In this document: positions 30,500 through 60,984 of the stretch, one piece after another | Numbering within the stretch: position 1 is the stretch's first letter | Layout of the letters: each line of letters starts with the position of its first letter | Assembly: GCA_037893245.1 (NCBI GenBank) | Contig: JBAIAA010000258.1 | Coordinates: 620,001-684,000, forward strand | DNA from: Crossaster papposus | Taxonomy: Eukaryota > Echinodermata > Asteroidea > Velatida > Solasteridae | Reading direction: 5' to 3' | DNA: 64,000 bases | Notes under the pieces: generated by a model | Seen by the model: the letters and a program-made list of their open reading frames with translations, nothing else | What the model was told of the DNA's origin: nothing | The model's database searches: none | Translations under genes and position numbers: made by a program

Positions 30500-30506
30500 C
30501 ATCACC

Positions 30507-38888: not shown

Positions 38889-38943
38889 TGTAAATAATTT
38901 AGACAAAATAAATGAATAGCAAAATGGTAGGCCTGACTTAACT

Positions 38944-39072
38944 GTTGAAATATGTGCATGCAGATTGATCTTTCGTATCAAAATTCTTGCATACTTTTCT
39001 GTCCCTCGTAGAGTAGCATTGGTGATATTATTTTCTTTGAAATAAAACTCAGCAAAAGACTTTGCCTGCACA
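38944..39072 (-). CDS. Upstream exon of the same gene
   Basis: After a minus-strand TGCATGTGCAG acceptor at about 39,073 the reading is AKSFAEFYFKENNITNATLR, then a basic stretch (GTEKYARILIRKINLHAH). The 3' splice site of the exon is not certain (candidates near 38,938). No family recognised. Confidence 0.4.
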
Positions 39073-39250
39073 TGCAAAAAAAACTACAACAAAAAAACAA
39101 AAAACATGTTTCTGTTAAACATGTTTGAAGGCGAAAAATTTGGTTTTATAGGCCAAGCTACTTCTGTGAGTTATGGCATTCTTTAAAAGATTCCTGAAGA
39201 TTAAAACATTTACTGTTTTGTAGCCTAATGTTTATGAATGAAGACACTTA

Positions 39251-44091: not shown

Positions 44092-45158
44092 GACAAAGGC
44101 CTTTTTAGGCTAACAACATGATCCATTGCAGTTGCCTTCAACTTAATGTGTTTGTATTTTCTGTGTGAGTGGGTAAACTGTTTACCGAGTTAAATGTACC
44201 AACAACAAGAGCAATTTAATTGCAAGCACTGAACCACGAACAAGAAATCTAAACTTCATCTGGACATGCATGAAATTTCTGTTGTTCTCATCAACAAATG
44301 CTACTTGTTAATTTTTTAACACACAGAAAAGTAAAAGTGTTTTTGTTTTTATTAAGTGTAAAAGCTCAACCATGCAAAATATCTAAAGTTGTTCGGCAGT
44401 GTGTTTTTGTAAACTACAGGCTACATGCATATATGTGGACATACATCATGATCATGCAGACACCGAGTTCCTCACACTCGCATGTGTAAAATCTACATGT
44501 ATGTGTTGTAATTGGGCAAACCACTGACAGAGATATTTGACGACTAGTTCAAACAAAACTCGAAGGCTTACAGAATCAAATGCTGAAAGGAAAACGTTTG
44601 CCATAATGACAAGAAATGGTTTGATTACTCATCATTGCTTTGCCACAACACTTGGCTTATGCAGTCTAGAAAACACAGAAACACCCCCTAAAACTATAGC
44701 AAATACTTTCACAAGCAAAACAAAATGAACAAACTGGTTATTTAATAAACACCCTATGCCATTGCCAAATGCTATCTCCAAACCGCCGTGTGTTCCTCTG
44801 TACTGTGTTTAATAATGTAGTGTTAAAACGGTAAATACAGTCACAACAACACTCACAGACTACTGAAAAAATCCCCCCAAAAACGTTATTTTACAGTCAC
44901 AAATTCCAATAAAAAACGGTCAGAAATACCTCTAAAACCTTCTCATAGATTTCCAATGGAGGCTAGTAAAAAATCTTGACAGATTTGCATGGAAAAGGAT
45001 ATGATTTCTGCAGGTTTTTTGTCGTGCTGTTTTTCTAATGCATGCACATGCACCGTGCGGCATGGTATATCAAAAAGTCTGGTGCCTAGTAACTTAACAT
45101 TGAGTGTGTGTACGCACCAGGCTAGTCTGAAATCCCGTGTTATTGTGCAGTAAGTGGA
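44092..45158. other. No gene seen
   Basis: AT-rich flank between the CAGGCCT element and element 2. Short open frames show no family motif. Confidence 0.4.
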
Positions 45159-45163
45159 CATAC
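45159..45163. repeat. Target-site duplication, left (CATAC)
   Basis: Same five bases at 60,809-60,813, directly outside the right end. Confidence 0.85.
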
Positions 45164-45300
45164 AGTAGTAGGGATATGCCGATTGTAGACCAAATCTTAA
45201 AAACTCAATTTAGTCTGATAACAAATAAAACTCACAAAAAACTAGTTTTATTTATCTTGCGAGAATCTTGCGAGCGCCCTCTATGGGTTAAATTAAAAAA
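45164..45300 (+). repeat. Element 2 left TIR
   Basis: Matches the reverse complement of 60,668-60,808 with a few substitutions and small indels. Ends with GCGCCCTCTATGGGTTAAATT, a motif repeated several times near the right end. Confidence 0.92.
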
Positions 45301-45343
45301 CAATAAATGACCAATTTTGTGTATCTTGGTTTACTCTCAATAA

Positions 45344-48300
45344 AATTTAAATAAAAAAATTATTATAATACTTACAACACCAATAGGATACGGACGTTGG
45401 TCTAAATCAACCTTGCAAAAATATGTAGAGCGAAATAATATCACGATCTCAGGGCGGAGCCTACGCCGGAACTATATCGACGCCATTAGAATAGAGGAGA
45501 ATAAATATAAAAACTTGAATCGCAAGAAACTCGATGAGCTCAAACAAATCATAGACGACCAAGAGTTACAATTTACACCAACTGGTAAACGAGGCCGATT
45601 TTTACGAAAGGATTTAATTTCAGCGATTAAATCGTATAAAAACCCCGATAGCTTCAGAGAGGCAGATTTTCAAGTACATAGAGCTTTTGGTAACAGTTAT
45701 AGAAACTGGGAGCTGACGCCTAGGTTGTTTAACAACGACGTAGAGCAATTCTTTAATACACACGTGAAGCAGATTGAAAAAATTGTTACGTCGGAGCTGA
45801 GAGATCTATCGACCATAAAAGTTCAATTAGGATTTAAAGCGAAATACGATAAAACAAATCAAGACGGCTTAGTAGAAACCAGCGCTTTTACCTTTTTTAG
45901 TAAAAAGCTAGTTGTTTTAAACGAGAGTCAGATAAAACAAACAGTAAAAGATCAAATCTTTAAAATAAAAGAAAAACACGCCAAAAATACGAGACAAGGA
46001 TCGGGTTGGAGCCTCGTTAAAATACTCGCGTTTTATATCAACATCGACCGATATAACCCTATGAGTGGAAACTCTTATATAGAATTACCGCCTTTTTTTG
46101 TAAACAAAAAGGCTTTTATTAACGTCAGAAACAAAGACAACGAATGTTTACGGTGGTGTTTGAGAGCCGCTCTCGGCAAGTATACCGACAAAATAAAACA
46201 ACGTGTAAAAGACAAACCCGATTTTAAAATCCACGAAGACAGACCATCAATTTATGATAAAAACGATGGATTAAATTTTAAAGACGTAGACTTTCCCGTT
46301 CGAATCAATCAAATAGAAAAGATAGAGAGACAAAACAATCTTAGTATAAATGTGTTTGCGTACGAAGAGGCTGAAGAAGTACGACCGTTATATTTATCTA
46401 AAAACGCCAACGACCCCACAGTCATAAATCTGCTGTTGTTTTCCTCAGGCAAAACGAATCACTATTGTTGGATAAAACATATATCTAGAATATTTGTTAA
46501 CCAAACGAAACACCAGCATAAAACATACGTCTGTTTCAGATGTTTGGCGCACTACAACACACGAGACAAGTTGGACAGGCATACGCAAGATTGCGAGGGA
46601 ATAGATGTGCCACCATCTAAGGCCGTCTTTCCAAAAGGTTTTAACGACGACCCTCCGATATTAAAATTTAAAAATCACAAGTTTGCGCAAGACGCACCTT
46701 TTGTCATTTACGCCGACTTTGAATCGATATTAAAAAAATTAAAACCTCAAGAGGCAAACACGCAGGAGACTCAAGTTCACAAAGCTTGCGGTTATTCGTT
46801 GATCGCTTTAAGGTGCGACGGTAAAGTTAAATTTCAAGAGACCTATAGAGGAACAGATGCCGTGACCAAGTTCTTAGACTCGGCGTTGCGTTTAAGATAC
46901 AAAGTAAACAAAGTTTTTAAAAACCCCAAACCCATAGACTTTACCACAAGTAACAACATCGGCCACCAAAACACGGACACGTGTTGGATTTGCGAGAAGT
47001 CAATATACCCCAACTACTATTTAAACTGTCAGTGCCCTATACCGAAAGAACCTCGCACTAACGAAGAAAAGGAAGAATATTGGTACGTAAACAAAAAAGG
47101 ATTTAAAGAGTCAAAGTGTCTAAAGTGTAAAAAGCGTATCAACAAATTTAGAAAGGTGAGAGATCACTGCCATATCACAGGCAAATACAGAGGAGCCGCG
47201 CACGCTTATTGCAATCTAAAACTGCAGGTGGTGCCCAAGAAAACCCCAATACCCGTCATCTTTCACAATTTACAAAATTACGACGCTCATTTAATCATGC
47301 AAGGTTTGTCTAATACTAAAAAAAATATCAATTTTATTCCCAGCAACTCGGAAAAATACATTTCGTTTTCGATCGGTAATCTGAGATTTATAGACTCGTT
47401 TAAATTTATGGCAACGTCGTTGGATAGACTAGTCAACGCGTGTCCCAAAGAGGCGTTTACTCTACTCAGAGAACGCTATAAAGATCAAAATGTCGACCTG
47501 CTCTTACAAAAAGGTGTTTACCCGTATGAGTATATGGACTCGTTCGATAAGTTTGAAGAGACGAGCTTACCAAGCATCGACGAGTTTTATAGCAGCCTCA
47601 AAAACTCGAATATCTCGCAAGACGATTATTCTAAGGCTCAACAAGTGTGGAACGAATTTAACGTCAAAAACTTGGGCGAATATCACGACTTATATGTGAC
47701 AACCGACGTGTTACTTTTGGCAGGTGTGTTTGAAAATTTTAGAAAAATTTGTAAAAAGAACTATAAGTTAGATCCCGCTAACTATTATACCTCTCCTGGG
47801 TTATCGTGGGACGCGCTATTAAAACACTCGGGAGTCGAGCTCGAGTTATTGGAAGACTTCGACAAACATCTGTTTTTTGAAAAAGCAAAAAGAGGAGGAC
47901 TATCGAGCGTGGGTAGTTCTAGGTACTACAAAGCAAACAATAAATATCTACCCGATTTTAAAACGGACGAGCCATCAACTTACATCATGTATCTTGACGC
48001 CAACAATTTGTATGGTTGGGCCATGAGTCAATATTTACCCTACGCCGATTTTGAATGGGTAAAACCCAAAGAATTTACGACGGAAAGCATTATGTCAATC
48101 TCAGAAACGTCCGATATAGGGTGTCTGTTGGAGGTAGACTTAGATTACCCCAACGCTTTGCACGATTGGCACAATGATTTTCCGCTAGCCCCCGAAAATA
48201 TCAAAGTACCCAAAGAGTGGTTATCTGAGTATCAACTGGGGTTGTTAACCGGTCTGAACGAATCTAAATTAATAGCCACTCTATACAACAGACGTAAATA

Positions 48301-49150
48301 TGTCTTGCACTACAAATCGTTACAACAGTATCTCAATCTTGGATTACGACTCAAAAAAGTACATCGCGTATTAAAATTTAAGCAAGCGCCTTGGATGAAA
48401 GAGTACATAGACAAAAACACTCGACTAAGAGCTAAAGCAACGTCCGACTTTGAAAAGGACTTTTTTAAGCTCATGAACAACAGCGTTTTTGGAAAGACGA
48501 TGGAAAACGTGAGAAATAGAACGGACGCGTTTTTGCTCAGAGACGACCAAGTTTCCAAATATAAAGCGTTGGTGCGTAAACCGAGCTATAAAAATACGAC
48601 GATTTTTACCGATTGCAATCTATCGTTTATCGAAATGTATAAGACCAAGACGCTATTAAACAAACCTATTTATGCGGGAGTGAGTATTTTAGACCTCTCA
48701 AAAACTCTCATGTACGACTTTTATTATAACCACCTCAAAGAGACCTATAGAGACCGAGTAGGGTTACTTTATACCGATACGGACAGTCTACTCTTGAGCG
48801 TTGAGACAGACGATGTTTATGAAGATATACAAAAAGACTCTGACTTGTATGACCTGTCAAACTACGATTCCTCTCACAACATCTATGACTCTAAAAACAA
48901 AAAGGTCATCGGTAAATTTAAAGACGAGTTTGGTGGAAAACCAGTCAGCGAATGCGTTTGCTTAAGACCAAAGATGTACTCGATTTTAACCTCTGACTCT
49001 AACCTTAAAAAAGCCAAAGGGGTCACAAAGTCGGTCACCGACAACAAATTAAGTCACGAGCGTTATCTCGACTGTCTCAAAAAAAAAAGAATCTCAGCTA
49101 GACACGATGACGTACATCAGATCAAAAAATCACGCGTTATACACCATTGA
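45344..49150 (+). CDS. Element 2 protein-primed family B DNA polymerase
   Basis: Over 1,245 codons. No ATG precedes the conserved N-terminal start (IGYGRWSKSTLQKYVE); the frame is open from 45,344, and an ACACCAATAG|GATACGG acceptor at 45,386 suggests a spliced upstream exon. Landmarks (residues counted from 45,413): Cys/His finger CFRCLAHYNTRDKLDRH (about 372), exo I YADFES (432), DHCHITGKYRG (583), exo II LQNYDAHL (619), exo III YVTTDVLLL (761), motif A YLDANNLYGWAMS (859), motif B KLMNNSVFGKT (1019), motif C YTDTDS (1120). All catalytic residues are present. The frame ends 60 bases past an A10 run (49,079-49,088); the conserved C-terminus, ending in a YILSNGTSTLAFGHYK-like reading, is in the next frame to a stop near 49,273. 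So the last 60 or so codons are split off by an indel or a sequencing error. Confidence 0.93.
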   Translation, partial: NLNKKIIIILTTPIGYGRWSKSTLQKYVERNNITISGRSLRRNYIDAIRIEENKYKNLNRKKLDELKQIIDDQELQFTPTGKRGRFLRKDLISAIKSYKNPDSFREADFQVHRAFGNSYRNWELTPRLFNNDVEQFFNTHVKQIEKIVTSELRDLSTIKVQLGFKAKYDKTNQDGLVETSAFTFFSKKLVVLNESQIKQTVKDQIFKIKEKHAKNTRQGSGWSLVKILAFYINIDRYNPMSGNSYIELPPFFVNKKAFINVRNKDNECLRWCLRAALGKYTDKIKQRVKDKPDFKIHEDRPSIYDKNDGLNFKDVDFPVRINQIEKIERQNNLSINVFAYEEAEEVRPLYLSKNANDPTVINLLLFSSGKTNHYCWIKHISRIFVNQTKHQHKTYVCFRCLAHYNTRDKLDRHTQDCEGIDVPPSKAVFPKGFNDDPPILKFKNHKFAQDAPFVIYADFESILKKLKPQEANTQETQVHKACGYSLIALRCDGKVKFQETYRGTDAVTKFLDSALRLRYKVNKVFKNPKPIDFTTSNNIGHQNTDTCWICEKSIYPNYYLNCQCPIPKEPRTNEEKEEYWYVNKKGFKESKCLKCKKRINKFRKVRDHCHITGKYRGAAHAYCNLKLQVVPKKTPIPVIFHNLQNYDAHLIMQGLSNTKKNINFIPSNSEKYISFSIGNLRFIDSFKFMATSLDRLVNACPKEAFTLLRERYKDQNVDLLLQKGVYPYEYMDSFDKFEETSLPSIDEFYSSLKNSNISQDDYSKAQQVWNEFNVKNLGEYHDLYVTTDVLLLAGVFENFRKICKKNYKLDPANYYTSPGLSWDALLKHSGVELELLEDFDKHLFFEKAKRGGLSSVGSSRYYKANNKYLPDFKTDEPSTYIMYLDANNLYGWAMSQYLPYADFEWVKPKEFTTESIMSISETSDIGCLLEVDLDYPNALHDWHNDFPLAPENIKVPKEWLSEYQLGLLTGLNESKLIATLYNRRKYVLHYKSLQQYLNLGLRLKKVHRVLKFKQAPWMKEYIDKNTRLRAKATSDFEKDFFKLMNNSVFGKTMENVRNRTDAFLLRDDQVSKYKALVRKPSYKNTTIFTDCNLSFIEMYKTKTLLNKPIYAGVSILDLSKTLMYDFYYNHLKETYRDRVGLLYTDTDSLLLSVETDDVYEDIQKDSDLYDLSNYDSSHNIYDSKNKKVIGKFKDEFGGKPVSECVCLRPKMYSILTSDSNLKKAKGVTKSVTDNKLSHERYLDCLKKKRISARHDDVHQIKKSRVIHH

Positions 49151-49231
49151 GCAAAACAAACTGTCGTTGAGCCCGTTAGACACAAAGCGGTATATACTCT
49201 CGAACGGAACGTCTACTCTAGCTTTTGGTCA

Positions 49232-50227
49232 CTATAAACTAGGAGGTAACTCGGTGTCTGGTGGAACGACTTGAAGCTCTTGACTAACGAAACTTCGATT
49301 GGGACCTTTTTTGAGATAATAAAGAGTGGGCTGGTTGTCTACTTTGATCGCGCGATCCAACCCAAAAACCTCGAGACTCCAAATAGGATCGGTCGCTCGC
49401 CTGCGTTCTCCTCCCTCTAACTCACCAGGCGCGTAAAGATATCTAAAAATATCGCCTTTTCTCACCAACTCTTTTTCTACACCTGGAGAAGAACTGATTT
49501 GACGAACTTGCGTTTCTTGCATGGCGAGCTTAGGAGTTAGTGGCTCGTAATCTTCCGTAGTTATCAATCTGGTGGTTTCACCGTTTAACGCCTCAATCAC
49601 GTCGGGCAATCGTTTAACCCAGAGTCGCGATCTCTCCGTCGGATTAACAATCTCTGCAGCGTATTGATGGCCGAACAATCTCTCTGCCAAAGTCCTGTTA
49701 AATCTTTCGACCACTGCCTGCGCTCTGTGGTTGCCCGGTTCCCCCACTTGTATCGCGACTTTTTTCTCCTCCAGTTGCTTTTTAAAAGCACCGTGAAATT
49801 CTTTACCCGCGTCTACTTTTAACAGCTTGGGCCAAGTCAAAGGTGACCTAGCGTAAACTCGAGATAAAGCGTCGGCCACTTGGGTACTCGTCTTGTTGGT
49901 CAAAGGTTCGGCCTCTTTAAAACGCGTGGCTACGTCTACGACCGTCATCGCGTAATTGTATTCTTTTTTACCGACTTTATCGTAAGGTAAAAATAACAAG
50001 TCTATCTGGTGCATTTCGTTTGGCACAGCCATGGACTTGTTTAAACTCGTAGGCCGGGGTATATATGAGGGAGGCGGTAAATAAATTTGCCACAACGCTT
50101 GTTTTCTTAACCAATTTCTGGTTTCTTTTTTGGACGCGCCCGTTTTTTTAGCTAATTTTACAACCGCGCCTTCACCCTTCCAATAACCGGCGGGGCTGTA
50201 ATACACTTTTTTAAACTTTGTTTCCAT
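49232..50227 (-). CDS. Element 2 retrovirus-type integrase
   Basis: 331 residues. An N-terminal helical part (AGYWKGEGAVVKLAKKTGAS) and IYLPPP step precede the catalytic core: Asp76 (HQIDLLFLPYD), Asp139 (LLKVDAGKEF) and Glu174 (AVVERFNRTLAER), the DDE triad with 34 residues between the last two. The C-terminal part has an SH3-like region (VRKGDIFRYLYAPGE) but no chromodomain, unlike element 1. It would integrate the element with the observed 5-base duplication. The gene is intact and its end overlaps, tail to tail, the shifted C-terminus of PolB. Confidence 0.93.
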   Translation of the reverse strand: METKFKKVYYSPAGYWKGEGAVVKLAKKTGASKKETRNWLRKQALWQIYLPPPSYIPRPTSLNKSMAVPNEMHQIDLLFLPYDKVGKKEYNYAMTVVDVATRFKEAEPLTNKTSTQVADALSRVYARSPLTWPKLLKVDAGKEFHGAFKKQLEEKKVAIQVGEPGNHRAQAVVERFNRTLAERLFGHQYAAEIVNPTERSRLWVKRLPDVIEALNGETTRLITTEDYEPLTPKLAMQETQVRQISSSPGVEKELVRKGDIFRYLYAPGELEGGERRRATDPIWSLEVFGLDRAIKVDNQPTLYYLKKGPNRSFVSQELQVVPPDTELPPSL

Positions 50228-50245
50228 TTAACTTAACTAAACAAA

Positions 50246-50674
50246 CTAAACAAACTTATAAACTAAAAAACCTACCAACGCAGTTCCTCCCAAAACAAAC
50301 GCCAACTCGCCGGTCTTTTGATCTTCGCTAGGTGCGTAAAAATCAGCTAGAGTGGGCTCATGCTGCAGGCTCACGGGTACTCGTGCGTTTGAGCGAGTAA
50401 CCGAGTTGTATTCTCTGAGAGCCTCGTCTATACTTTCAAAAGTCCTTTGAGCCTTTGCTTGTTTTTTGAGTCGATCGTTTAACCAATCGAGATACTTTGT
50501 CCTCGCTCTTTCCCAATTGTTTTTTGCCGTTGCCAGTTTTTCTAAAGCCAAGTCGTGTCTCTTGCGCTCTTCGTCTTGTTTTTGTTGTTTCATGCTCGAA
50601 AATAAAATTTTTAATCCCGTGAAAGCTAAAGCGTTAACTATTGCGCCTCCGATCATCATAGCGATGCTAGCCAT
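50246..50674 (-). CDS. Element 2 membrane-anchored coiled-coil protein, lineage-specific
   Basis: 142 residues: an N-terminal hydrophobic helix (MMIGGAIVNALAFTG), a charged helical segment (EERKRHDLALEKLATAKNNWERARTK region), a variable linker, and a C-terminal transmembrane helix (LAFVLGGTALVGFLVYKF). The MIGGAxxNAxAFTG start and RHDxAxExL step recur in related virus-like elements of aquatic animals, in my recollection. Function unknown; probably a virion membrane or scaffold protein. It lies 19 bases upstream of the integrase on the same strand. Confidence 0.7.
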   Translation of the reverse strand: MASIAMMIGGAIVNALAFTGLKILFSSMKQQKQDEERKRHDLALEKLATAKNNWERARTKYLDWLNDRLKKQAKAQRTFESIDEALREYNSVTRSNARVPVSLQHEPTLADFYAPSEDQKTGELAFVLGGTALVGFLVYKFV

Positions 50675-50712
50675 TTTTATAAAAAACGAAAAAAAAAAAA
50701 ATATCTATAAAA

Positions 50713-52008
50713 ATGGACTTAGATTTCAAGAGTCTAGAAGTAGTAGTTAACTCGGTCGACCGCGGTTCTTTTATGGCTACTTTTCCAGATCTATTTAGCG
50801 ACTATAAGTTACCCGATGTTAAAACGGACGAGGTAATAAACAGATGGAAAACACAACCGATGACGTTTTATCAAAATCAACTTAATTTTGCCATTTGGTG
50901 TAGTACCACCGGAGCCGGTTTAGGGTGGGATCTTATTGATTCGATCGATCCTCTGACGAGCGCCGTATACAGATTTCACGTTTATTTTACCGTTAGAAAA
51001 ATATTAGAGTTTCTCAAATGTCCTATTTTGAACGACGGCGTGTTTAATGCCGTAGACAACAACGTAGATCGCGGGTCTTATATCGACGCGTGTAGATTTT
51101 ATTCTACGGATCCTAAAAATACTTGGATACAGACTGTAGATCTCTACTCGGGCGGATTGGGGCAGGCTTATGCTTGGGGTAAACCTTTGGGAGATTACGA
51201 TACCACGGACTTGGGTATTAGTTACGGTAAATACGCGGGAGGAACTAAAATGGGGTTTGGCCCCTCACAACCTCCAGGAGGATCTGGACGTTACAGCTCT
51301 CAAACGGTGACAAATTTGACGCAAGACGACGCCGTTGGCTCGGCGTGGAAACGTTTTATAAACCAAGAGTCTCACTTTTCCGACGTCGGCATACAAAAAA
51401 TAAACGAATCTATCAGGGCGTATGTTTACGCTCTGCTGGGGGCCCAGGCACAAACAAAAACTAGTATTTTAACTCCGGGTACGGGGCTCGACGCCCAAAC
51501 CCAGTTTGTTAATATCGTAGAAGGTTTGATATCGTCTCCGACCGATCTGGAAGAATCTATAACCCAATTTCAAGATTCGCTGCAATACGCCAGGAGTTCG
51601 TTAAACTTTGTGTTGGCGAAAGGATTATATCTCGTGCCTTCGAACATGCAATTGAGGGTCGGAACCCACGAAGGATATAACAACAATATACAGATTGCGA
51701 CTGCTGAGTTGGTGTTGGGATTAAACTCGAAGATAAACTCAAACATACCACCAACGCCAACTCTCGCAGTCGTTGACCCACCACCCTTCCCTACTCCCGC
51801 GCCAACTCTCGCAGTCGTTGACCCACCACCCTTCCCTACTCCCGCGCCAACTCTCGCAGTCGTTGACCCAGCACCACCCACGATCGAGTCTGAAGAAAAC
51901 GCAGTCAGAGATCCTCACGAATACGAAAAAACTTCGCTGATTGTCGGTACTTTAGCCATAGCGGGTATAGGATACCTGCTTTTAGACCTGTACGAGTCTG
52001 CGCGTTAA
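50713..52008 (+). CDS. Element 2 lineage-specific structural-type protein with C-terminal anchor
   Basis: 431 residues. The conserved body contains NFAIWCSTTGAGLGWDLI, VYRFHVYFTVRKIL, NNVDRGSYIDACRFY and SGGLGQAYAWG. A three-fold 15-residue repeat of PTLAVVDPPPFPTPA type follows (51,757-51,870), then a transmembrane helix (LIVGTLAIAGIGYLLLDL). The repeat units are nearly identical at DNA level, indicating recent expansion. Related proteins occur beside capsid genes in similar elements (family recollection). Likely a minor virion or host-contact protein; not proven. It is transcribed divergently from 50,674. Confidence 0.7.
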   Translation: MDLDFKSLEVVVNSVDRGSFMATFPDLFSDYKLPDVKTDEVINRWKTQPMTFYQNQLNFAIWCSTTGAGLGWDLIDSIDPLTSAVYRFHVYFTVRKILEFLKCPILNDGVFNAVDNNVDRGSYIDACRFYSTDPKNTWIQTVDLYSGGLGQAYAWGKPLGDYDTTDLGISYGKYAGGTKMGFGPSQPPGGSGRYSSQTVTNLTQDDAVGSAWKRFINQESHFSDVGIQKINESIRAYVYALLGAQAQTKTSILTPGTGLDAQTQFVNIVEGLISSPTDLEESITQFQDSLQYARSSLNFVLAKGLYLVPSNMQLRVGTHEGYNNNIQIATAELVLGLNSKINSNIPPTPTLAVVDPPPFPTPAPTLAVVDPPPFPTPAPTLAVVDPAPPTIESEENAVRDPHEYEKTSLIVGTLAIAGIGYLLLDLYESAR

Positions 52009-52081
52009 AAGTAAAAAAAAAAGCCTTCTGTTAGCTACCAGTTTAGGGGTGGCTAACAGAAGGCTTTTTTTTATTACTTTT
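52007..52081. terminator. Hairpin between convergent genes
   Basis: AGCCTTCTGTTAGCTACC (52,022-52,039) pairs with 52,048-52,065 with one G-U equivalent, and A/T-rich flanks (AAAAGTAAAAA...TTTATTACTTTT) extend the stem to nearly fill the 71-base gap between the stop codons at 52,008 and 52,080. It is probably a transcript end signal working in both directions. Confidence 0.75.
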
Positions 52082-53312
52082 AACCAAGACGCTTTTGTAA
52101 ATAAACAAAAATTAAAGTTCCGACTCCCACTATAAGGGTCCACACGTGTTCTCCCAACCATCCGGCGGTTTTACTCAAGACGTTAAATATCCAACTCGCT
52201 ATACCACCTAAAATTCCGGGCAAGGCGTTGAATAAGCGAGAGCCTAGTTTAGCGAGCACGTTTGACAAGTGTTTTAGTTGCGACTGTATCCATTCTTTTA
52301 CGTTGGTGGCGTTAGACGGTGGTGATGGTGAGGGAGGGAAGGGTGTGGGTGTGGGTGGCGCACCGACAGACAAAACGCTCTTTACTATCAAACCGATAGC
52401 CAAACTAAACGCCGTCAAAATAGCCGTTACGGTCACACCTTGTTCTCTAAACAACGTTCTAATTTTTTCTCCCAAGGTCTCGTTGCTATCTAACATCCTC
52501 GTAATCGTTTCTTTGATTCTGTTCATCTGACTTCTGAGGTTTTTTTCGTCGGTAGACGCGGCTTCTAATCTAGCCGATTTTTCCAACCTTAAGTCTTCTA
52601 ATCTCTCTCTCATTTCTGCCGTGGAACCGTCGGCGAGTGCCGCTTCGGTTGAGACTATCTCATCTTCGACGTGTCTGAGGCGCGCTAAATTTAGTTCTAA
52701 GTTGCCTCTCATCGTTTGAAGAGTTTTGTCTAAACCCAAGATCTCTCTCATGGGTAAGCCCGTTTCTCGTTCTTCGATAAAACTGGTTTCTTGTTCAAAA
52801 GTTTCGAGAATTTCGCTTATAGCGTCGGCCGCTTCTGGAAGATCTTGTATCGGGATAGACTCTGTATTCTCTTCAAGTCGTTTTTTTTGTTTTTTACTAA
52901 ATGGATTTACTTTATAATCTTTAAAACCTAATTCGTTTCTAATAAAATCTACACCAGAATTTATTTCGATGGAACTTAATGCTAAAAATTTATCGGGTTT
53001 GTTTTTGTACGATAATTGTACTTCTACTTCGTCGTTTTCAAAAAATAACGTGTTATTTTTTACTACGAATCTTTCCCATTGCGGAATTATTTCATATTGT
53101 TTTTGTCCTTGACTTTTGTAGAAACTTTCGACTCTTGGACTATACCTAAACATACGGTTCCCTCGTTCTATGGTATCCTCACGGGCTTGAACAACGGCTG
53201 GATCTAACGCCGTTTCGTTGTAGATGGAGTAATCGTTTATATCCAATTCTACCTCGTTGTCTTCTTCCTCGTGGTCTTCTACAGGTTCAAACAAATCTCC
53301 ACCTTCAGCCAT
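52080..53312 (-). CDS. Element 2 coiled-coil membrane protein, lineage-specific
   Basis: 410 residues: an acidic start, a FYKSQGQKQYEIIPQWERFV region, an SIPIQDLPEAADAISEIL helix, ETGLPMREILGLDKTLQTMRG, a long coiled coil (about 190-280), EKIRTLFREQGVTVTAILTAFSLA (amphipathic or membrane helix), a Pro-rich linker, then LPGILGGIASWIFNVLSKTAG and a final transmembrane helix (WTLIVGVGTLIFVYL). The FREQGVTxxxILTAFS step is strongly conserved in this family in aquatic animal virus-like elements (recollection). Function unknown; virion membrane or fusion-like role is conceivable, not shown. Confidence 0.7.
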   Translation of the reverse strand: MAEGGDLFEPVEDHEEEDNEVELDINDYSIYNETALDPAVVQAREDTIERGNRMFRYSPRVESFYKSQGQKQYEIIPQWERFVVKNNTLFFENDEVEVQLSYKNKPDKFLALSSIEINSGVDFIRNELGFKDYKVNPFSKKQKKRLEENTESIPIQDLPEAADAISEILETFEQETSFIEERETGLPMREILGLDKTLQTMRGNLELNLARLRHVEDEIVSTEAALADGSTAEMRERLEDLRLEKSARLEAASTDEKNLRSQMNRIKETITRMLDSNETLGEKIRTLFREQGVTVTAILTAFSLAIGLIVKSVLSVGAPPTPTPFPPSPSPPSNATNVKEWIQSQLKHLSNVLAKLGSRLFNALPGILGGIASWIFNVLSKTAGWLGEHVWTLIVGVGTLIFVYLQKRLG

Positions 53313-53325
53313 TTATATAAACGAA

Positions 53326-53556
53326 TTAAAGTTTTAAAATATTTGGTGGAAGTATATTTTGCGATACCAGCCAGGTTTTTACGTACATCGATCCGCTTAT
53401 CGTAGCCGTTAATTTCGCTACATCTTCCACGCTCAACTTGTCGAGATCGGCCGGTTTGATCTTCAACAGTTTTTTACTAAACATGGTAAATCCTACGCTT
53501 AACATAGAGATGATAGCGGCGTGATAGAGATTGTTGACGATGCTATTAGTATCCAT
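53326..53556 (-). CDS. Element 2 small membrane protein
   Basis: 76 residues, with an N-terminal hydrophobic helix (HAAIISMLSVGFTMFSKK), then LLKIKPADLDKLSVEDVAKL and a second weakly hydrophobic helix. It ends 13 bases before the start of the coiled-coil protein gene. The KKLLKIxPAxLD pattern recurs in related elements (recollection). Function unknown. Confidence 0.65.
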   Translation of the reverse strand: MDTNSIVNNLYHAAIISMLSVGFTMFSKKLLKIKPADLDKLSVEDVAKLTATISGSMYVKTWLVSQNILPPNILKL

Positions 53557-53650
53557 TTATAATTGCTATATATATTTTTTTTAATTTTTTATTCCATTTC
53601 TACAAAATTTGAAGGTGGTTTCTCCTTTGGGCTCTCTTGGGCTGGCTGTG

Positions 53651-53944
53651 TTAGAGGTTGCGGTTTTGGTGGTGAGACTCTCTGGCTCCATTATAGAGTC
53701 CTCCTAAAACTACAACAACCACCAGCGACAACGGCCCAACTGTCGCGTACGAAGAAGGAGGAGTAGTTTTTACGTCTATATTTTGCATCTTGACAATTTG
53801 TTCTTTTCTCTTTTTGTTGTGTTCCGCTAATGCCTTGCCTTGTTTTACTCTACCGGGATTTTTAGTTTTAGTCGTCACCGTCTGTATTTTTGAGACTTTT
53901 AGAGTCTCTGGTTGAAGAGGGTTCGAGCTCTCTGGTTGACTCAT
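53651..53944 (-). CDS. Element 2 basic protein with transmembrane segment
   Basis: 97 residues: a Lys/Arg-rich region (TKTKNPGRVKQGKALAEHNKKRKEQIVK) followed by a hydrophobic helix (VGPLSLVVVVVLGGLY). The NPxRVxQGKxLAExNxxxKE pattern is characteristic of small proteins in related elements (recollection). Its start codon lies inside the 3' end of the next gene (76-base overlap), so the two are probably expressed from one transcript region. Function unknown; possible DNA or membrane tether. Confidence 0.65.
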   Translation of the reverse strand: MSQPESSNPLQPETLKVSKIQTVTTKTKNPGRVKQGKALAEHNKKRKEQIVKMQNIDVKTTPPSSYATVGPLSLVVVVVLGGLYNGARESHHQNRNL

Positions 53945-54533
53945 CTTTTATTATAGGTAGAGAATTATTTTTGTTAATAACTAAATATTTAGATGTTATC
54001 AAGACACCTACTAACGGCGACAACCAAACGCCGTAGTTGTAATAAACTTCACAAAGTAAACTAGCTATCGAGCTAGATATAACTGGATCTTCCTCTAGAT
54101 CTTTGGTGAGTGCGTCTTCCGAGTCTACTCTTAGACTGACACCCTTCCCTAGTTTGATCATAGGTAGACTCGCGCCTAAAACTCTAGAGTAAATCCCCAG
54201 CACGCAGTTACCCAAACTAGTAATCATTTCTTTATCCAGTCGAGCCTCGTAATGGTTGTACATTTTTTCTTGTTTGTTCGCGTCTAGGTTTTCTATATCT
54301 CCCTGGCTAAATTCTTTACCTAAATACTTTTTAGAATCACCGGCTGATACTACACCCAACAGTCTAGTTTTATGTTTTTCCGTTTGCGGCGCTGGTGTGC
54401 TAAAGTCTAAAGTAGACAGCTCCATTTTTATAAGACGATATAATTTATTTTTTAGAGCAAAATATTCGTAAGATAAAATACACAAGGCCGACGCTATAAT
54501 AAATTTGAGCGAAAGATCGATCAACAAAAACAT
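53868..54533 (-). CDS. Element 2 uncharacterised conserved protein
   Basis: 221 residues. A hydrophobic N-terminal helix (LKFIIASALCILSYEYFAL) precedes an ELSTLDFSTPAP segment, then RLLGVVSAGDSKKYLGKEFSQ and a helical region with two hydrophobic stretches (MITSLGNCVLGIYSRVLG; WLSPLVGVLITSKYL). The internal Met at 54,425 (MELSTLDF) is an alternative start without the first helix. Function unknown. Transcribed with its neighbours on the minus strand. Confidence 0.6.
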   Translation of the reverse strand: MFLLIDLSLKFIIASALCILSYEYFALKNKLYRLIKMELSTLDFSTPAPQTEKHKTRLLGVVSAGDSKKYLGKEFSQGDIENLDANKQEKMYNHYEARLDKEMITSLGNCVLGIYSRVLGASLPMIKLGKGVSLRVDSEDALTKDLEEDPVISSSIASLLCEVYYNYGVWLSPLVGVLITSKYLVINKNNSLPIIKDESTRELEPSSTRDSKSLKNTDGDD

Positions 54534-54846
54534 TTAAATAAACGCGAGATAAACTAACTTACAACTAACTTACAACTAGTTATGCAAGTACTTTATAACT
54601 AGCTGTTCAACTAGCTGTTCAACTAGCTGTTCAACTAGCTGTTCAACAAATCACAACTAGCTGTGCAAGTACTTTACAACTAGCTACCCAACAAATTACA
54701 ACTAGCTGTGCAAGTACTTTATAACTAGCTGTTCAACTAGCTGTTCAACAAAACTCAACTAGCTGTTCAACAAAACCTCAACAAAACCCAACTAGCTGTT
54801 CAACAAAACCCCAACAAAACCCCAACAAACCGCAACTAGGTTACAA
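54534..54846. repeat. CTAGCTGTTCAA-type repeat region between ATPase and neighbour
   Basis: About twenty degenerate copies of AACTAGCTGT(T/G)C(A)A are interspersed with AGTACTTTA(C/T)AACTAGCT and AACAAAACC blocks. Each unit holds the palindrome CTAG. It is the largest non-coding gap in the minus-strand cluster and precedes the 54,533 gene. A replication, packaging or enhancer role is possible; not shown. Confidence 0.8.
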
Positions 54847-55476
54847 CTAGCTATACAAGTACCATTTAGCCGGAGGATCCGTATGTAAAATCAATTTACT
54901 ATAGGGAGTGTCTTTGAGATATTGTTTTATGTCTCGCCTTTTATTATCCGGCACCACATCATTTTCGTCGAGACAATTATCAAAACTTTTTTTGTCTTTG
55001 CAATAAAAAATAGCGACCCATTGTGTCTGTTCGCGATAATCTTTTAAAACGCTGTTATATTTTTGAGTCAATAACCAACAGCTGTGGTTATCGTGTCTAC
55101 CGCTAAAGGCTAATTTAGATAACATGCACACACTACTACCGCCTCTAGAACCCTTTCGATATTTTATCGCTTGATAAGCGCTACAGTCGTTGATTAAAAA
55201 CAAAGTGTGCAATCCTTTAAATTTCGTTCTGTAAAAGTCTATGGCTTCGTTCATGTTCATATTTTCAGCGTCGGGGTCGCACGCATAAACGTTGGGGTCG
55301 TTAAAAAACCAAGGTCTCTCGTGATACGTTTTGTTGTTTGACAGAGTCGGACATACGATCACCAAGTATTCAAATTTGTTGGCATATTCGTTTTCTAGCA
55401 AGTCCAACGCAAACTTTGTTTTACCAGAGTTTGTCCTTCCACATATTAAAGCGCAGTGCGGCGTCATCTTACTCAT
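54847..55476 (-). CDS. Element 2 packaging ATPase (A32/FtsK-like)
   Basis: 209 residues, with Walker A GRTNSGKT (13-20), YLVIVCPTLSNNKTY, Walker B LFLIND (92-97) and a LAFSGRHDNHSCWLLTQKYN segment carrying the probable Arg finger and the conserved Gln after the sensor strand. It would package DNA into capsids. The sequence differs strongly from the element 1 ATPase (different Walker A surroundings and no GKEMRTISLNA-like segment), supporting a separate lineage. Intact. It lies 34 bases downstream of the capsid gene on the same strand. Confidence 0.92.
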   Translation of the reverse strand: MSKMTPHCALICGRTNSGKTKFALDLLENEYANKFEYLVIVCPTLSNNKTYHERPWFFNDPNVYACDPDAENMNMNEAIDFYRTKFKGLHTLFLINDCSAYQAIKYRKGSRGGSSVCMLSKLAFSGRHDNHSCWLLTQKYNSVLKDYREQTQWVAIFYCKDKKSFDNCLDENDVVPDNKRRDIKQYLKDTPYSKLILHTDPPAKWYLYS

Positions 55477-55510
55477 GTTGGCGTGTCTTTTATATAGAGT
55501 TATTTTATTT

Positions 55511-56779
55511 TTAAAAGTTGACGCTGCTCAAGCGACCTCCTTGGATGTTAAGTTGCGCGTCCATAACCAAAAATACGTAACACTTTAGAGCGCCCGCGGT
55601 TTGAGCTTCGCGTTCCATCAATATAGAGATTCCTCCGCTTATATCGCCGATTTGTTTACCCGATCCGTGATTTTTGTTGTCGTCGGTCGATCTCATATCC
55701 AACCAAAGACCGTATCTTCTCAAAAAATAATCACCGATATCCATCTCCGTCAACCCTAAATCTTTACATATACCAGGCCCTAGCTCGGTGGATGAGTCTC
55801 CAAAGAACTTGTTGATTTCTCCCCAGTGTTGATAGCTTTTGAGACCCAAACTGTAGAGTTGATTAGGTTTTCCTTCTATCGTCACGCTAACTTTGTCTAT
55901 CTTTGGGTTATAAAAAAGTTCGGGGGTTTTCGTAGTCAGGTCTTTAAACAAAAACAGTATACCCTTGAGACTTTTAACCGCTACATTTAAATTAAAGTTC
56001 CAAACGGTGTCCGATTTATTGATAGATCTTACTTCGTGTCTCTGAATCCTATCGAACAAAAACTGCGTCTTGTCGAGACATTTTTGAGCTAAGATTTGAG
56101 ATAAATATTTGTTAGAAACGATCTCGTATTCTAGCGCCAAGTTAGAGATGCGATAACTCGCTTCGGCGTCGGTAGAATTTACGACTTTGGAGTAGTCGTT
56201 AAAAGTAAGTTCGTAAGACAGTTGGTCGTTCAGAGCGGATGGATAAAACGGTTGATGATCTGTGAGCATTTCAAAGTCTAGAGGAATACAAAATCTGTTT
56301 CCAAAGGCATCCGCTGTTGCTTTGTCTTTTCCAGAGTTGGCACCGGCAACCGCGTTGCCGGTGCCCACACGTAGGCTCGATATGTTGGCAATCTCGTTTC
56401 CGGCGTAGTGATCTCTGATACCTTTGGGTAACCAAAGATCTTTAAAAATGTTATAAACGTCGGTGTCGGTCAAGTTTACGATCTCCCGGCCACCGATACA
56501 TATTCTTATTTGTTTTACGAGATTTCGTCCTAGATTTTTAAACAGACTTCGATCGGCATCGTCGTCCGAGGTTAGATCGATATTAAAAGCTAGTTTCGCC
56601 GAACCGGGGACGATCACGTCGTCGGCGCTCAACGACGGAAACTTGACTATTAATTTGTCGTTCGCGTCGATCGTGCTTGGATTGTGAGTTACTACTACAG
56701 TCTGGCGGTTGCCTTTTATACCCCGAGGATTTTTAAGGCGTCTGTGTGGATTTAGTTTGTTTCCGTAAGTCGCGTTCAT
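55511..56779 (-). CDS. Element 2 major capsid protein (double-jelly-roll type)
   Basis: 422 residues, with VTHNPSTIDANDKLIVKFPSL, a KLAFNIDLTSDDDADR strand, RNLVKQIRICIGGREIVNLT and LVMDAQLNIQGG near the end. Length, the VxxNPxxI...L.V.FP...PGSxxLxF start, the KxLxxxIxVxxxGxxV step and position next to the packaging ATPase fit the capsid protein of polinton-like and adinto-like viruses. There is no clear similarity to the element 1 capsid. Intact. Identification is by family pattern, not a search. Confidence 0.8.
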   Translation of the reverse strand: MNATYGNKLNPHRRLKNPRGIKGNRQTVVVTHNPSTIDANDKLIVKFPSLSADDVIVPGSAKLAFNIDLTSDDDADRSLFKNLGRNLVKQIRICIGGREIVNLTDTDVYNIFKDLWLPKGIRDHYAGNEIANISSLRVGTGNAVAGANSGKDKATADAFGNRFCIPLDFEMLTDHQPFYPSALNDQLSYELTFNDYSKVVNSTDAEASYRISNLALEYEIVSNKYLSQILAQKCLDKTQFLFDRIQRHEVRSINKSDTVWNFNLNVAVKSLKGILFLFKDLTTKTPELFYNPKIDKVSVTIEGKPNQLYSLGLKSYQHWGEINKFFGDSSTELGPGICKDLGLTEMDIGDYFLRRYGLWLDMRSTDDNKNHGSGKQIGDISGGISILMEREAQTAGALKCYVFLVMDAQLNIQGGRLSSVNF

Positions 56780-56817
56780 TTTTTATAGTAACGTTTTATT
56801 ATTTTATTTTTAAAAAA

Positions 56818-57480
56818 ATGCAGTCGCACACTCTCGTCATGACCAAAAAAGAGCAGACTTTTGAGCTACCTCGGCCCATCGCATTAAGTTAAGCAGCGTC
56901 ATTTTAGACTTGGGTTTTTATAACGTCGAAAAAGTAGAGAGGGTATCGTATTCTATACATACTCGGATTAGTGTTAAAGAAGGTGTGGTCGATATCACAC
57001 CCGCTCGATGGAATCTTTATTCTTTAAAAGATCGTTTTAAAGATGATATTAAACCTATGACCATTACTCCGATAAACGATAAACTATTTTATTTGTCATT
57101 GGCGGCCTCTGAGTCTTTAGCGGATATAAAACCATCGGGTATTACCCGATGGTTGGATCTATGGCAGCGGTGATTTAACTGAATTTGGAAGATTTAGCCT
57201 AAATCTTTACAGCGCGGTTTTTTTACATTGCGAAGAACTGTCTACGCATTCAACATTTTTAAACGGAAAGCAAACCAATCTTTTGGAGGGTATACCTTTA
57301 TCGGGCGATGCTGCTCGTTCAAACAATCCCCAAGATCCAATTTACGTCAAATACGACAATTCTCCGAAAGAGTTAGTAGCCGATAAAATAAACAGCCTCA
57401 CGTTTTCGTTAAAAAACGGTCTTGGCGAGGTCTTAGATAATAGAGGTAAAGATATAATTTTAAACGTAAAAATATTTTAG
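56818..57480 (+). pseudogene. Element 2 minor capsid (penton-like) gene, broken copy 1
   Basis: The start MQSHTLVMTKKEQTFELPRPI parallels copy 2 but a deletion after about 56,880 removes about 10 codons and shifts the frame, giving an early stop at 56,890. A second shift occurs near 57,140. The C-terminal part (NLYSAVFLHCEELSTHS, IPLSGDAARSN, GLGEVLDNRGKDI) is open to 57,480. The pattern (Phe-rich start, GFYN, LHCxxLST, NG, IP) is that of the single-jelly-roll minor capsid protein of related elements. It is a decayed duplicate. Confidence 0.8.
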
Positions 57481-57493
57481 TTACTTTTGTAAA

Positions 57494-58205
57494 ATGCAGT
57501 CTCATACGTTTGTCATGACGGATAACGAGCAGACCTTTGAACTATCGCGACCTATAGATAACGTCGGGGGTGACCGTCGCATGAAGTTAAACAACTTTGT
57601 GTTAGACTTGGGTTTTTATAACCTCAACAAAAAAGCGTCGATGAATTGGGAGAGTTTTACGGGTGATACAAATGATCCGACGTCAGATCAAATTGTCGAT
57701 CGGGAGGAATATCACGTTTTTCACGATCGATGGAATCTTTATTCTTTTAAATATTTTATAACAAATTTTCACGATATATCCATAGAGACCTTATCCGATG
57801 AACTATTTTATATATCCATTCCCGATCACAATCGCATAAAACTATCGAGTAATTTGTCTAAACTTTTAGGTTTACCCAGGGGTTGGCTTTATGGTGGTAG
57901 TCATTATGGAAAATTTAGCCTAAATCTTTACAGCGCGGTCTTTTTACATTGCGAAGAACTGTCTACGCATTCAAATTTTGTTAACGGAAAACAAACAAAC
58001 CAACCTGTTGGAGAGTATACCTTTATCGGGTGATGCCGCCCGTTCAAACAATCCTCAAGATCCAATTTATATCAACTATAACAAGTGTTCAAAAGAGTTG
58101 GTAGCTGGCAAAATAAACAGTCTCACGTTTTTGTTAAAAAACGGTCTTGGTGAGGTGTTAGATAACAGAGGTAAAGAGATAATTTTTAACGTAGAAATAT
58201 TTTAG
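57494..58205 (+). pseudogene. Element 2 minor capsid (penton-like) gene, copy 2, late frameshift
   Basis: Open from MQSHTFVMTDNEQTFELS through NNFVLDLGFYNLNKKAS, WNLYSFKYF, KLLGLPRGWLYGG and AVFLHCEELSTHS to about 58,010, where the frame is lost; the remaining part (IPLSGDAARSNNP, GLGEVLDNRGKEI) is open in the next frame to 58,205. It is preceded by the same TTACTTTTGTAAA block as the following gene at 58,219, so the duplication unit included the upstream signal. Element 2 therefore has no fully open minor capsid gene. Confidence 0.82.
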
Positions 58206-58218
58206 TTACTTTTGTAAA

Positions 58219-58830
58219 ATGACGACTAGTATTTATCCTGATCTAAAAATCGACGAAACGAGGGTGTTTCGATTGCAAAAGATCGAAGAAGTTCAAAAAG
58301 ATATATTGGCGCAACGAGAACAGCGAAGCGCGTTGTGTAAAAAATAGGGCAAGTTAATTACGACATTGTCTACTACAGAAACCCTAGCCGAGATGAGTGG
58401 TGTGATTTGTGGGGGTTTGGGAATCGCAGCTATAAGCGGTGCCATCACGTCACCCGTTGGTTTTGCGTTAGAGGGAGTAGCCTTGAGTTTTGGTTGCGCC
58501 GCGCTCTTGCTAAAATATTTTAGCAAACGATTTAGACGTAAAGCTAAAAAACACGACGAGATTAGAGTCTTGGCTGAGGCTAAACTTAACAGCGTAAGAG
58601 ATCTTATTTCTCAAGCTATAGAGGACGGCGATATATCCCACGAAGAGTACGCTTTGGTGTTGAAGGAATTGAGGCAATTTAACGATATGAAAGAGGCTAT
58701 TAGGTCCGACAGCAAGCTGTCGGAAAAGAAAGGTGAGAGCGGTATGGAATCCGAGATTAAAAAACGCGTGGAAGAGTTGGTGTTAAAAGAAAAAAAAGGA
58801 ATTATCGAAAAACTTACAGCTTCACGATAA
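58219..58830 (+). pseudogene. Element 2 conserved membrane-type protein, single in-frame stop
   Basis: The frame from MTTSIYPDLKIDETRVFRLQ is interrupted by one TAG at 58,345 (codon 43) and then stays open to 58,830, about 204 codons in all. After the stop come a Gly-rich hydrophobic stretch (ICGGLGIAAISGAITSPVG, then ALEGVALSFGCAALLLKY), and KAKKHDEIRVLAEAKLN followed by an EDGDISHEEYALVLKEL region, a pattern I know from similar elements of aquatic animals. Probably functional until recently. Reading from a later start would lose the conserved N-terminus. Confidence 0.7.
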
Positions 58831-59142
58831 ATAAAAATTATTTAGATCAACCCCCTCCTTACCCGTCGGCGCCTCTTTTATAAAAAAGAGAAATACTTGA
58901 CTCTTTGAACCCATACTATACTATGGTGGGTACCAGCACAAATTATGAGCTAACACATAACACGCTGACAAAACAACCTTTGAGCCGAGATTGTTTTGTC
59001 AGCGTGGTTAGCAGCCACCCTTCACAGACAAAGAAATATATCTGCCGTGGGCGGCTGTATGGAAAATTACTAGCCACCCTTCACAGACAAAGAAATATAT
59101 CTGGCGTGGGCGGCTGTATGGAAAATTACTGGTTCTAGTAGC
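58831..59142. repeat. Hairpin and 63-bp direct duplication
   Basis: CACGCTGACAAAACAA (58,961-58,976) pairs perfectly with 58,991-59,006. Then AGCCACCCTTCACAGACAAAG through GCGGCTGTATGGAAAATTACT occurs twice in tandem (about 59,010-59,072 and 59,073-59,130). No gene is seen. Confidence 0.8.
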
Positions 59143-59150
59143 GGTATAAA
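59143..59150 (+). promoter_or_regulatory. TATA box (TATAAATA) within a short palindrome
   Basis: GCGGTATAAATACCGC is self-complementary at its ends. It precedes a spliced leader and the gene at 59,494. A leader repeat of about 97 bases follows (59,178-59,272 and 59,275-59,375; GCACTTGTACAGCGTGAGCG start). Confidence 0.6.
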
Positions 59151-59177
59151 TACCGCGGCATGAGCTGTTTCATCATT

Positions 59178-59379
59178 TATGCACTTGTACAGCGTGAGCG
59201 TGTATCACACAGTTTTACATCGAGCCAGCTCCCGTGTGTTTTAAAATCACGAGTCTACTTTTAACCCAGAAATTTCTGCACTTGTACAGCGTGAGCGTGT
59301 ATCACACAGTTTTACTACGCACATCGAGCCAGCTCCCGTGTGTTTTAAAATCACGAGTCTACTTTTAACCCAGAACTCA
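59178..59379 (+). repeat. Tandem ~97-bp repeat in the leader
   Basis: Two nearly identical copies from GCACTTGTACAGCGTGAGCG to ACTTTTAACCCAGAA. The second has an eight-base insert (ACTACGCA). Confidence 0.85.
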
Positions 59380-59392
59380 GCTACTAAAAAAG

Positions 59393-59489
59393 GTAAGAAA
59401 ATATAATTGTTTTGTTTACGTGAGTAGCTCAAAAGAATAATTGCTATGATATTAAAACTCTATCTATTCTTGTATTTTATTTGCTTTAG
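59393..59489 (+). other. Putative 97-bp leader intron
   Basis: Donor AAAAAAG|GTAAGA at 59,393 and acceptor TTTGCTTTAG at 59,489, four bases before an ATG. Splice site quality and length are typical of animal introns. It decides the start of the next gene at 59,494. Confidence 0.65.
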
Positions 59490-59493
59490 TATC

Positions 59494-60218
59494 ATGGCGT
59501 TTCCAAGGCAAGTCCTCAAACTGACTTACATGAGGGAAGACGTCGATAAAGCCAATCGTCTCATCGACTCAGGCTGCGAGTGGGCGGCGCAACAATTTCA
59601 ACAATATCACCAACTCGTCGATGAGGCAAAAAGACTGATCATCGACGGTCGACATGAAGAAGCCTTGGAAGCCCTAAACAACGAACCGAATGTAAATAAT
59701 CCGCCACCACTCCCAACTTTAGAAGCTCAAGAAAATGATGAAGAAGTAGAAGAAATAGTTATAATATTGAGCAACAATGAAGTAATTTGGGGGATATTCC
59801 CGAAGTGGATAACGAAAATTATAGTTTAAAACGTTTAGAAGAATGCATAAAAGAATGCAACCAAATTCATACAAAGGGGGAAAATAGGAGTTTGTTTAAC
59901 GCCGCAAAATTTGGGAATTGGCTAGAAGTTTCGTTTCAAAAATTTCAACGAGAAAAACGGGGGGGTAAGGTGTTTTTATCAAATTTTGATACGTGGTTAA
60001 AACAAAATTGCGGCTTACAAAAAGATTGGGCAAAACTATTGAGGGAATTTTACAAACTGGTAAAGGAATATCCCAAATTACTCCGTTGTCGCTTACCATT
60101 AAATTTCTTCAGAAAAAATAAGAAGTTTATAAAGACATATTTTAGTATCGTCCCAACAGTAGGAAATAGATGGAAGCACCCCACCCAGTGTAATTGCAAT
60201 CAATGTGGCCCTCTGTAA
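59494..60218 (+). pseudogene. Element 2 uncharacterised gene, probably one protein split by a frameshift
   Basis: The first part starts MAFPRQVLKLTYMREDV after the intron and runs through ANRLIDSGCEWAAQQFQQYH and GRHEEALEALNNEP to an acidic stretch. Its frame ends at 59,829. The second part is open in another frame from about 59,790 to 60,218 (NYSLKRLEECIKECNQIH, AAKFGNWLEVSFQKFQ, FDTWLKQNCGLQKDW, LLRCRLP, CNCNQCGPL). The two look like N- and C-terminal halves of one helical protein with a shift near 59,785. The C-terminal CxCxxC suggests metal binding. Function unknown. Confidence 0.6.
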
Positions 60219-60244
60219 TTTAGAAATGACGTCATTTTTAAAAA

Positions 60245-60385
60245 GCTATAAATAGCCCAAAAGCAGATACGTGTCTGCTTTTGGGCTATTTATAGCACCC
60301 TCTGTAATTTAGAAATGACGTCATTTTTAAAAAGCTATAAATAGCCCAAAAGCAGATACGTGTCTGCTTTTGGGCTATTTATAGC
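60245..60385. terminator. Two tandem identical hairpins after the last gene
   Basis: GCTATAAATAGCCCAAAAGCAGA (arm of 23) pairs perfectly with 60,274-60,296 around loop TACGTG; the whole 89-base unit, with an ATGACGTCAT palindrome upstream, is repeated at 60,334-60,385. They follow the stop at 60,218 and are probably end signals or termini-proximal regulatory sites. Confidence 0.75.
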
Positions 60386-60667
60386 ACCCTCTGTGAGGGA
60401 CTCTAGAAGTTAATTTTAGTTTAAAAAAACTGTGATCAATGAGAATAAAATAAAATAGCGCCCTCTGTTGAGGGTGCTATTTTAAAATTAATTTTAGAGT
60501 TTGTCATTTATTTATTTTTTTTAATTTTATAGAGGGCGCTGTTTTTTTTAAATTAATTTTAGAGTTTGTCATTTATTGTTTTTTTAATTTAACCCATAGA
60601 GGGCGCTGTTTAAAAAAAATTAATTTAGCCCATAGAGGGCGCTGTTTTTTTAAAAATTAATTTTAGA
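60386..60667. repeat. AGAGGGCGCTGTTTT repeats inside the right end
   Basis: At least four copies of (A)GAGGGCGCTGTTTTTTTAAATTAATTTTAGA with GTTTGTCATTTATT spacers. The outermost copy is part of the TIR. They may be integrase or terminal-protein binding sites (inference). Confidence 0.8.
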
Positions 60668-60808
60668 TTTTTTAATTTAACCCATAGAGGGCGCTGTTTT
60701 TTTAGATTCTCGCAAGATAAATAAAACTAGTTTTTTTGTGAGTTTTTTTGATATCAGACCAAATTGAGTTTTTAAGATTTGGTCTACAATCGGCATATCC
60801 CTACTACT
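60668..60808 (-). repeat. Element 2 right TIR
   Basis: Reverse complement of 45,164-45,300 with small differences; ends ...CATATCCCTACTACT, followed by CATAC. Confidence 0.92.
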
Positions 60809-60984
60809 CATACACATATGTTGGTGCCATACTATTAAGAGAATAATGTGAACAGTTTGTGATGTCGTCTGCTATTTTTCTGGTCAGATTTGTGGGCTAA
60901 TTTTCAAGGGGAAGGACTTAAAATTAAGCTTGGTAACATATATTTTTGAATTCAGGGCACATTAATTGGGTATAAAAAGTATGT

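Follow-up and report, generated by a model that had tools for sequence, protein, structure and literature searches.

We analysed a 64,000-nucleotide window of the sea star Crossaster papposus (assembly GCA_037893245.1, contig JBAIAA010000258.1, positions 620,001–684,000 of the forward strand). An element of approximately 15.6 kb within this window (45164..60808, with inverted ends AGTAGT...ACTACT) is very probably a degenerating copy of a high-copy family of animal Polinton-type DNA viruses or transposons, and the family was probably active not too distantly. By its defining genes the element is a Polinton as Yutin et al. use the term (PMC4642659), uniting a polymerase with an rve integrase. 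Gene content, ends, a double-jelly-roll capsid protein and numerous copies ending in the same way bear out the Polinton-type element proposed in the initial annotation, which had been made from the letters alone.

The terminal inverted repeats (TIRs) have arms of 105 nt with 91% identity when ungapped and 96% when gapped, and CATAC stands at both flanks, matching the mirrored ends and duplicated target that had been reported. The left flank (44664–45163) belongs to a dispersed repeat, which matched the genome at 19 places including itself, three of them in tandem on contig C774. In 11 of 11 paralogues examined, which were all those fetched among the 18 other matches, the site was empty: the flanks were contiguous around a single CATAC, with 95.8–98.5% identity. 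The insertion is a clean one, and the element a genuine one. The perfect duplication and the 96% TIRs make the previously suggested recent integration plausible without giving it an age.

A genome search with the 105-base TIR as the query yielded 40 scored matches from 908 first-look candidates. The end motif was seen at 27 of the 30 TIR loci fetched (the AGTAGTAGGG start at 13 and the CCCTACTACT-type end, counted with two variable positions allowed, at 14), and the ends are therefore common to other genomic copies, a point on which the proposal had been made to depend beforehand. The flanks of these loci were mostly different, and the few sharing a flank resembled duplicates of one site. Duplications of 5 bp were found at five of six comparable TIR pairs, representing four independent sites (CATAC; ACGAG, on two contigs resembling one site; GCATG; GAGGG); no right end was seen for the sixth pair. 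With the ends fixed as AGTAGT/ACTACT, 5 bp were obtained at all four independent sites and no fixed pair yielded 6 bp throughout; a 6-bp reading is possible at single sites except GAGGG, provided that an end base is assigned to the host.

All copy counts in the host assembly (1.02 Gb) are lower bounds. It contains at least 121 copies of the integrase gene (93–98% identity apart from self), at least 99 of the capsid gene (95–98% apart from self) and at least 109 matches to the accessory gene p410, from 102 scored candidates, the full-length ones being 70–96% identical. A same-strand integrase was located within 15 kb of 46 of the 99 listed capsid copies, at a distance of 5.5–7.4 kb in 43 of these 46; for the remaining listed copies the integrase partner may fall outside the listed matches. 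Beyond the window's own locus, 19 loci have the genes for integrase, p410 and capsid protein arranged alike in order and strand, as judged by eye from the listed matches. Some contigs resemble duplicates of a single locus (the ACGAG site, for example, occurs on both C269 and C1347), so the copy numbers may include haplotigs.

The ratio of nonsynonymous to synonymous substitution rates (dN/dS) was estimated for each gene against seven copies, those ranked best by protein similarity. It was 0.07–0.11 for the integrase, 0.13–0.27 for the capsid gene, 0.15–0.24 for the ATPase gene and 0.28–0.34 for the end of PolB in six of the seven copies (the seventh had no match); an out-of-frame reading of PolB, used as a control, gave 0.80–1.20 with 1–2 stops. 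The accessory genes announced by the initial annotation are present, and those compared (p142, p431, p410, p76 and p221) had ratios mostly below 1: 0.19–0.53 for p142, 0.20–0.27 for the first part of p431 and 0.17–0.38 for the whole of it, and 0–0.15 for p76 in six of seven copies, with 0.79 in one. The frames of a tandemly duplicated gene (56.9–58.2 kb) were uneven, at 0.44–1.29 for 57494–58033, 0.45–1.36 for the first copy's 5′ frame, 0.22–0.36 for 57924–58205 (6/7 copies) and 0.18–0.65 for 57130–57480 (6/7 copies, with 1.91 in one).

These values bear on whether the element is a purely intracellular transposon, its capsid genes being relics and its spread proceeding only by copying and integration within the genome. 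The high copy number in one genome would fit such a life, as would the lack of a match among the viral contigs of IMG/VR within the reach of the scans, whereas the constraint on capsid and ATPase genes across the compared copies and the 2419 relatives of the capsid protein at E ≤ 0.001 in the protein collection speak against it, and we regard this explanation as unlikely.

The polymerase was recognised by its motifs. Exo I–III, an EndoVII-like insert and then palm A, B and C lie in the expected order within one open frame (45344–49150), as had been described earlier for a PolB with its catalytic motifs. Cys and His motifs resembling those of an N-terminal OTU domain are in place, but profile scans gave no OTU match. 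The EndoVII insert was the sole part of the frame above the Pfam cut-off (2e-5). The frame is open from 45344 and its first ATG occurs only at 46061, so that its N-terminal part is either broken or dependent on a different start or on splicing. Over the final 1.15 kb, 2–5 frame-changing indels were counted against each of six other copies, and a further open frame (49053–49274), the letters of which resemble PolB C-termini, continues the reading.

The integrase matched Pfam rve at 3.9e-9 and retains D76, D139 and E174, in agreement with the DDE integrase claimed initially. Its N-terminus is homologous to that of a Maverick remnant elsewhere in the window (2e-6). For this reason an IS481 origin, which an NCBIfam match had raised (1.2e-16; its 61 bits fall short of the cut-off, 224), was rejected. 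No chromodomain was detected on the integrase by Pfam, as anticipated; the same kind of scan detected that of the Maverick remnant in the window (6.9e-9), which served as a positive control.

The product of the capsid gene, for which the initial annotation had suggested a jelly-roll fold, is confidently predicted to be a double jelly roll, closest to nucleocytoviricot capsids in the structural comparison of the model, and the adjacent packaging ATPase matched Pox_A32 in Pfam at 3e-5. By sequence, the single protein found no solved capsid relative and its profile gave three chance-like matches (E 0.58–3); phage records held no match to the capsid protein, and the capsid profile showed no similarity to the 331-aa frame of the Maverick remnant. 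Structural scores reached 25.9 among nucleocytoviricots, most rows lying at 20–24 and a few at 15–17; outside them the best virophage scored 18.2 and the best adenovirus 15.2. This ranking would suit a chimera like Buck's meldviruses, in which Polinton-type replication and integration genes are paired with capsid genes exchanged with nucleocytoviricots, and such pairings have been described (PMC11071296). However, ordinary Polinton capsid proteins likewise reach Vp54 first by HHpred (PMC4028283), so that structural rank alone is no proof of exchange; we consider a chimera rather unlikely.

Models of adenain, chromodomain and penton had no match to the element frames when 21 frames were scanned with Pfam and 10 proteins with each of PHROGs and NCBIfam. 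The Pfam set comprised 10 + 3 + 8 = 21 frames, two of them overlapping, and its lack of an adenain-type protease is as the initial annotation had it, with the proviso that a very divergent protease could escape. The duplicated gene at 56.9–58.2 kb, for which no homologues were found, is a candidate for a penton (single-jelly-roll) protein.

Like Polintons/Mavericks, the element has a pPolB-type frame, an rve integrase, an A32/FtsK ATPase, a double-jelly-roll capsid protein (common among them, not universal) and the ends (AGT)2...(ACT)2, and its size falls within the 15–20 kb that has been published. (AGT)2 is reported as the commonest end motif of vertebrate Mavericks (PMC8097293). It differs in its 5-bp rather than 6-bp duplication, in its 105-bp TIR arms and in having no recognised adenain protease or chromodomain. 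A duplication of 6 bp is usual for Polintons (PMC10045372; PMC8097293) without being defining, and 5–6 bp are mentioned for polinton-like viruses (PMC12220804); an adenain-type protease occurs in 74% of a published Polinton set and is likewise not defining (PMC4028283).

Membership in Adintoviridae proper is very improbable. The element shares with adintoviruses a PolB with OTU-like motifs, an rve integrase and a hexon-type capsid protein, and it also has the ATPase; however, Buck's definition includes a chromodomain (PMC11071296), which is absent, penton and adenain were unmatched in the scans, and the duplication is 5 bp. The earlier term "adinto-like" holds only loosely, since the defining chromodomain is lacking. 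Likened by description, Meldvirus Meld23486 (PMC11071296) has a similar adintovirus-like PolB, integrase and capsid protein, its capsid protein being near poxvirus D13, whereas the closest structure to that of our element belongs to a capsid chain of PBCV-1, D13 scoring some 4 Z below it. Also by description, Bellas et al. (PMC10120064) place certain cnidarian Polinton capsid genes apart from the main Maverick-Polinton cluster, and coral polinton-like viruses are already published (PMC12220804). Given these chimeric meldviruses, outlying cnidarian genes and coral viruses, the general kind is known; the combination of a 5-bp duplication with neither chromodomain nor adenain was not found in the passages searched of the open-licence literature. 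The family is abundant and poorly described.

Several observations weigh against a Polinton-type viral family that was active not too distantly. Pfam polymerase models did not match the PolB frame, nor did any solved polymerase by sequence, and the identity of PolB therefore rests on motifs. No penton was identified in the profile scans of the element frames. The capsid particle is a prediction from genes and modelled structure. IMG/VR yielded no relative in scans sensitive only to close relatives or to a small number of motifs; of two patterns used, one was confirmed to match the window and the other had no such control. Choosing copies by protein similarity favours intact ones, a bias weaker for neighbouring genes than for the query. 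For p410, six copies of the seven had ratios of 0.40–0.68, and the remaining one reached 3.02 at a dS close to zero. Stops or frame-changing indels affected p142 in two of seven copies and p431 in three in the first comparison, and p431 in six of seven when the whole gene was compared. Synonymous distances to the best-ranked copies were 0.12–0.16 for the integrase and 0.04–0.07 for the capsid gene, so the family is not brand-new and has some age. Finally, the window copy itself is broken at the end of PolB and in the tandem genes at 56.9–58.2 kb, which are split across frames. From these PolB indels and split genes the copy is degenerating, though the family seems to have been active not long ago, and "nearly intact" was a generous description.

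Table 1 Features of the 15.6-kb element and its target site (positions in the window).
Feature	Position	Strand	Basis or content
Left target duplication CATAC	45159..45163	.	Flank and paralogous-site comparison
Left TIR, start AGTAGTAGGG	45164..45268	+	Self-comparison, genome search
PolB open frame	45344..49150	+	N-terminal extension, OTU-like motifs, Exo I–III, EndoVII-like insert, palm motifs A–C
rve integrase, DD35E (D76, D139, E174), without chromodomain	49232..50227	-	Pfam, motif residues
p142, two hydrophobic segments	50246..50674	-	
p431, proline-rich repeats, C-terminal hydrophobic segment	50713..52008	+	
Hairpin containing an A-run and a T-run, in the gap separating convergent p431 and p410	52015..52072	.	
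p410, with a variable N-terminal part, a middle resembling a coiled coil (by eye), and conservation of a hydrophobic segment and of the C-terminus	52080..53312	-	
p76, small frame	53326..53556	-	
p97, one hydrophobic segment	53651..53944	-	
p221, N-terminal hydrophobic segment	53868..54533	-	
A32/FtsK-type packaging ATPase	54847..55476	-	Pfam and other profile scans
Double-jelly-roll major capsid protein (predicted)	55511..56779	-	Predicted structure, structural comparison
First copy of tandemly duplicated gene, broken across frames	56865..57480	+	
Second copy of tandemly duplicated gene, broken across frames	57494..58205	+	
p145, two hydrophobic segments	58393..58830	+	
p127, N-terminal hydrophobic segment	59446..59829	+	
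Basic 145-aa frame	59781..60218	+	
Tandem pair of identical 89-bp units, each containing a near-perfect palindrome of 52 nt	60209..60386	.	
Right TIR, end ACTACT	60704..60808	-	Self-comparison, genome search
Right target duplication CATAC	60809..60813	.	Flank and paralogous-site comparison

The features of the element are listed in Table 1. In seven copies p410 was listed as two pieces, an N-terminal part with 62–68% identity and a C-terminal part with 82–85%; the dN/dS of the N-terminal part rose to 1.04 in one copy, and this part appears to diverge as though exchanged or diversifying. Mytilus names occur among the p410 relatives listed, at 30–34% identity.

Six of eight hairpin loci, the window's included, matched the base-stem pattern, with shuffle z values of −4.3 to −8.3; as the pattern itself demands the base stem, independent evidence comes only from pairing above it. 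Long upper stems are present in the window and in L060, where the order is inverted; the upper stem of L062 is also long but consists of other letters, which pair again. L061, L063 and L064 have short hairpins that add one or two pairs. Of the two loci outside the pattern, one was shown by alignment to hold this hairpin, enlarged by a small insertion, and the other aligned partly. We infer that the hairpin acts as a bidirectional transcript end.

Each 89-bp unit at 60209–60386 holds a TGACGTCA motif and a TATAAATA-like box, and the units overlap or trail the end of the last + strand frame; they are perhaps a promoter or a transcript-end signal. Imperfect tandem repeats of the AACTAGCTGTTCAAC type lie between p221 and the ATPase gene (54552–54858). 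Rfam gave 16 matches, all below gathering scores and on or near palindromes. Elsewhere in the window, another Polinton/Maverick element, a broken remnant of the usual kind (20544–35285), contains a zinc-finger PolB frame, an A32 ATPase (Pfam 1.5e-6), a split integrase with the chromodomain detected above and a likely capsid frame, and is older than the 15.6-kb element. A long minisatellite at 1455–2629 is open in several frames, and a proline/threonine-coding tandem repeat forms two near-identical stretches at 36667–39083.

In the mechanism that we propose for this Polinton-type family, the element's protein-primed PolB would replicate the linear genome starting at the ends, and the DD35E integrase would use a 5-bp stagger to join the AGTAGT ends to the DNA of the host. 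An icosahedral particle would be formed by the capsid protein and filled by the ATPase, with no adenain-type protease involved. Among the hydrophobic proteins, p142, p431, p410 and p221 may be virion or membrane proteins, with p410 a candidate for a membrane-acting protein, and the p431/p410 hairpin would end both convergent transcripts. Somewhat tentatively, the family may be a distinct and still-moving family of animal Polinton viruses, characterised by a nucleocytoviricot-style capsid without adenain, a 5-bp stagger made by a chromodomain-free integrase, a membrane-acting p410 and a terminator hairpin conserved in structure.

Virion formation by Polintons is a long-open question, and with its many similar copies and constrained capsid and ATPase genes, C. 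papposus would offer a practical genome in which to hunt for particles. Its 5-bp stagger, together with the lack of chromodomain and protease, shows that a lineage can succeed without traits that are usual in Polintons.
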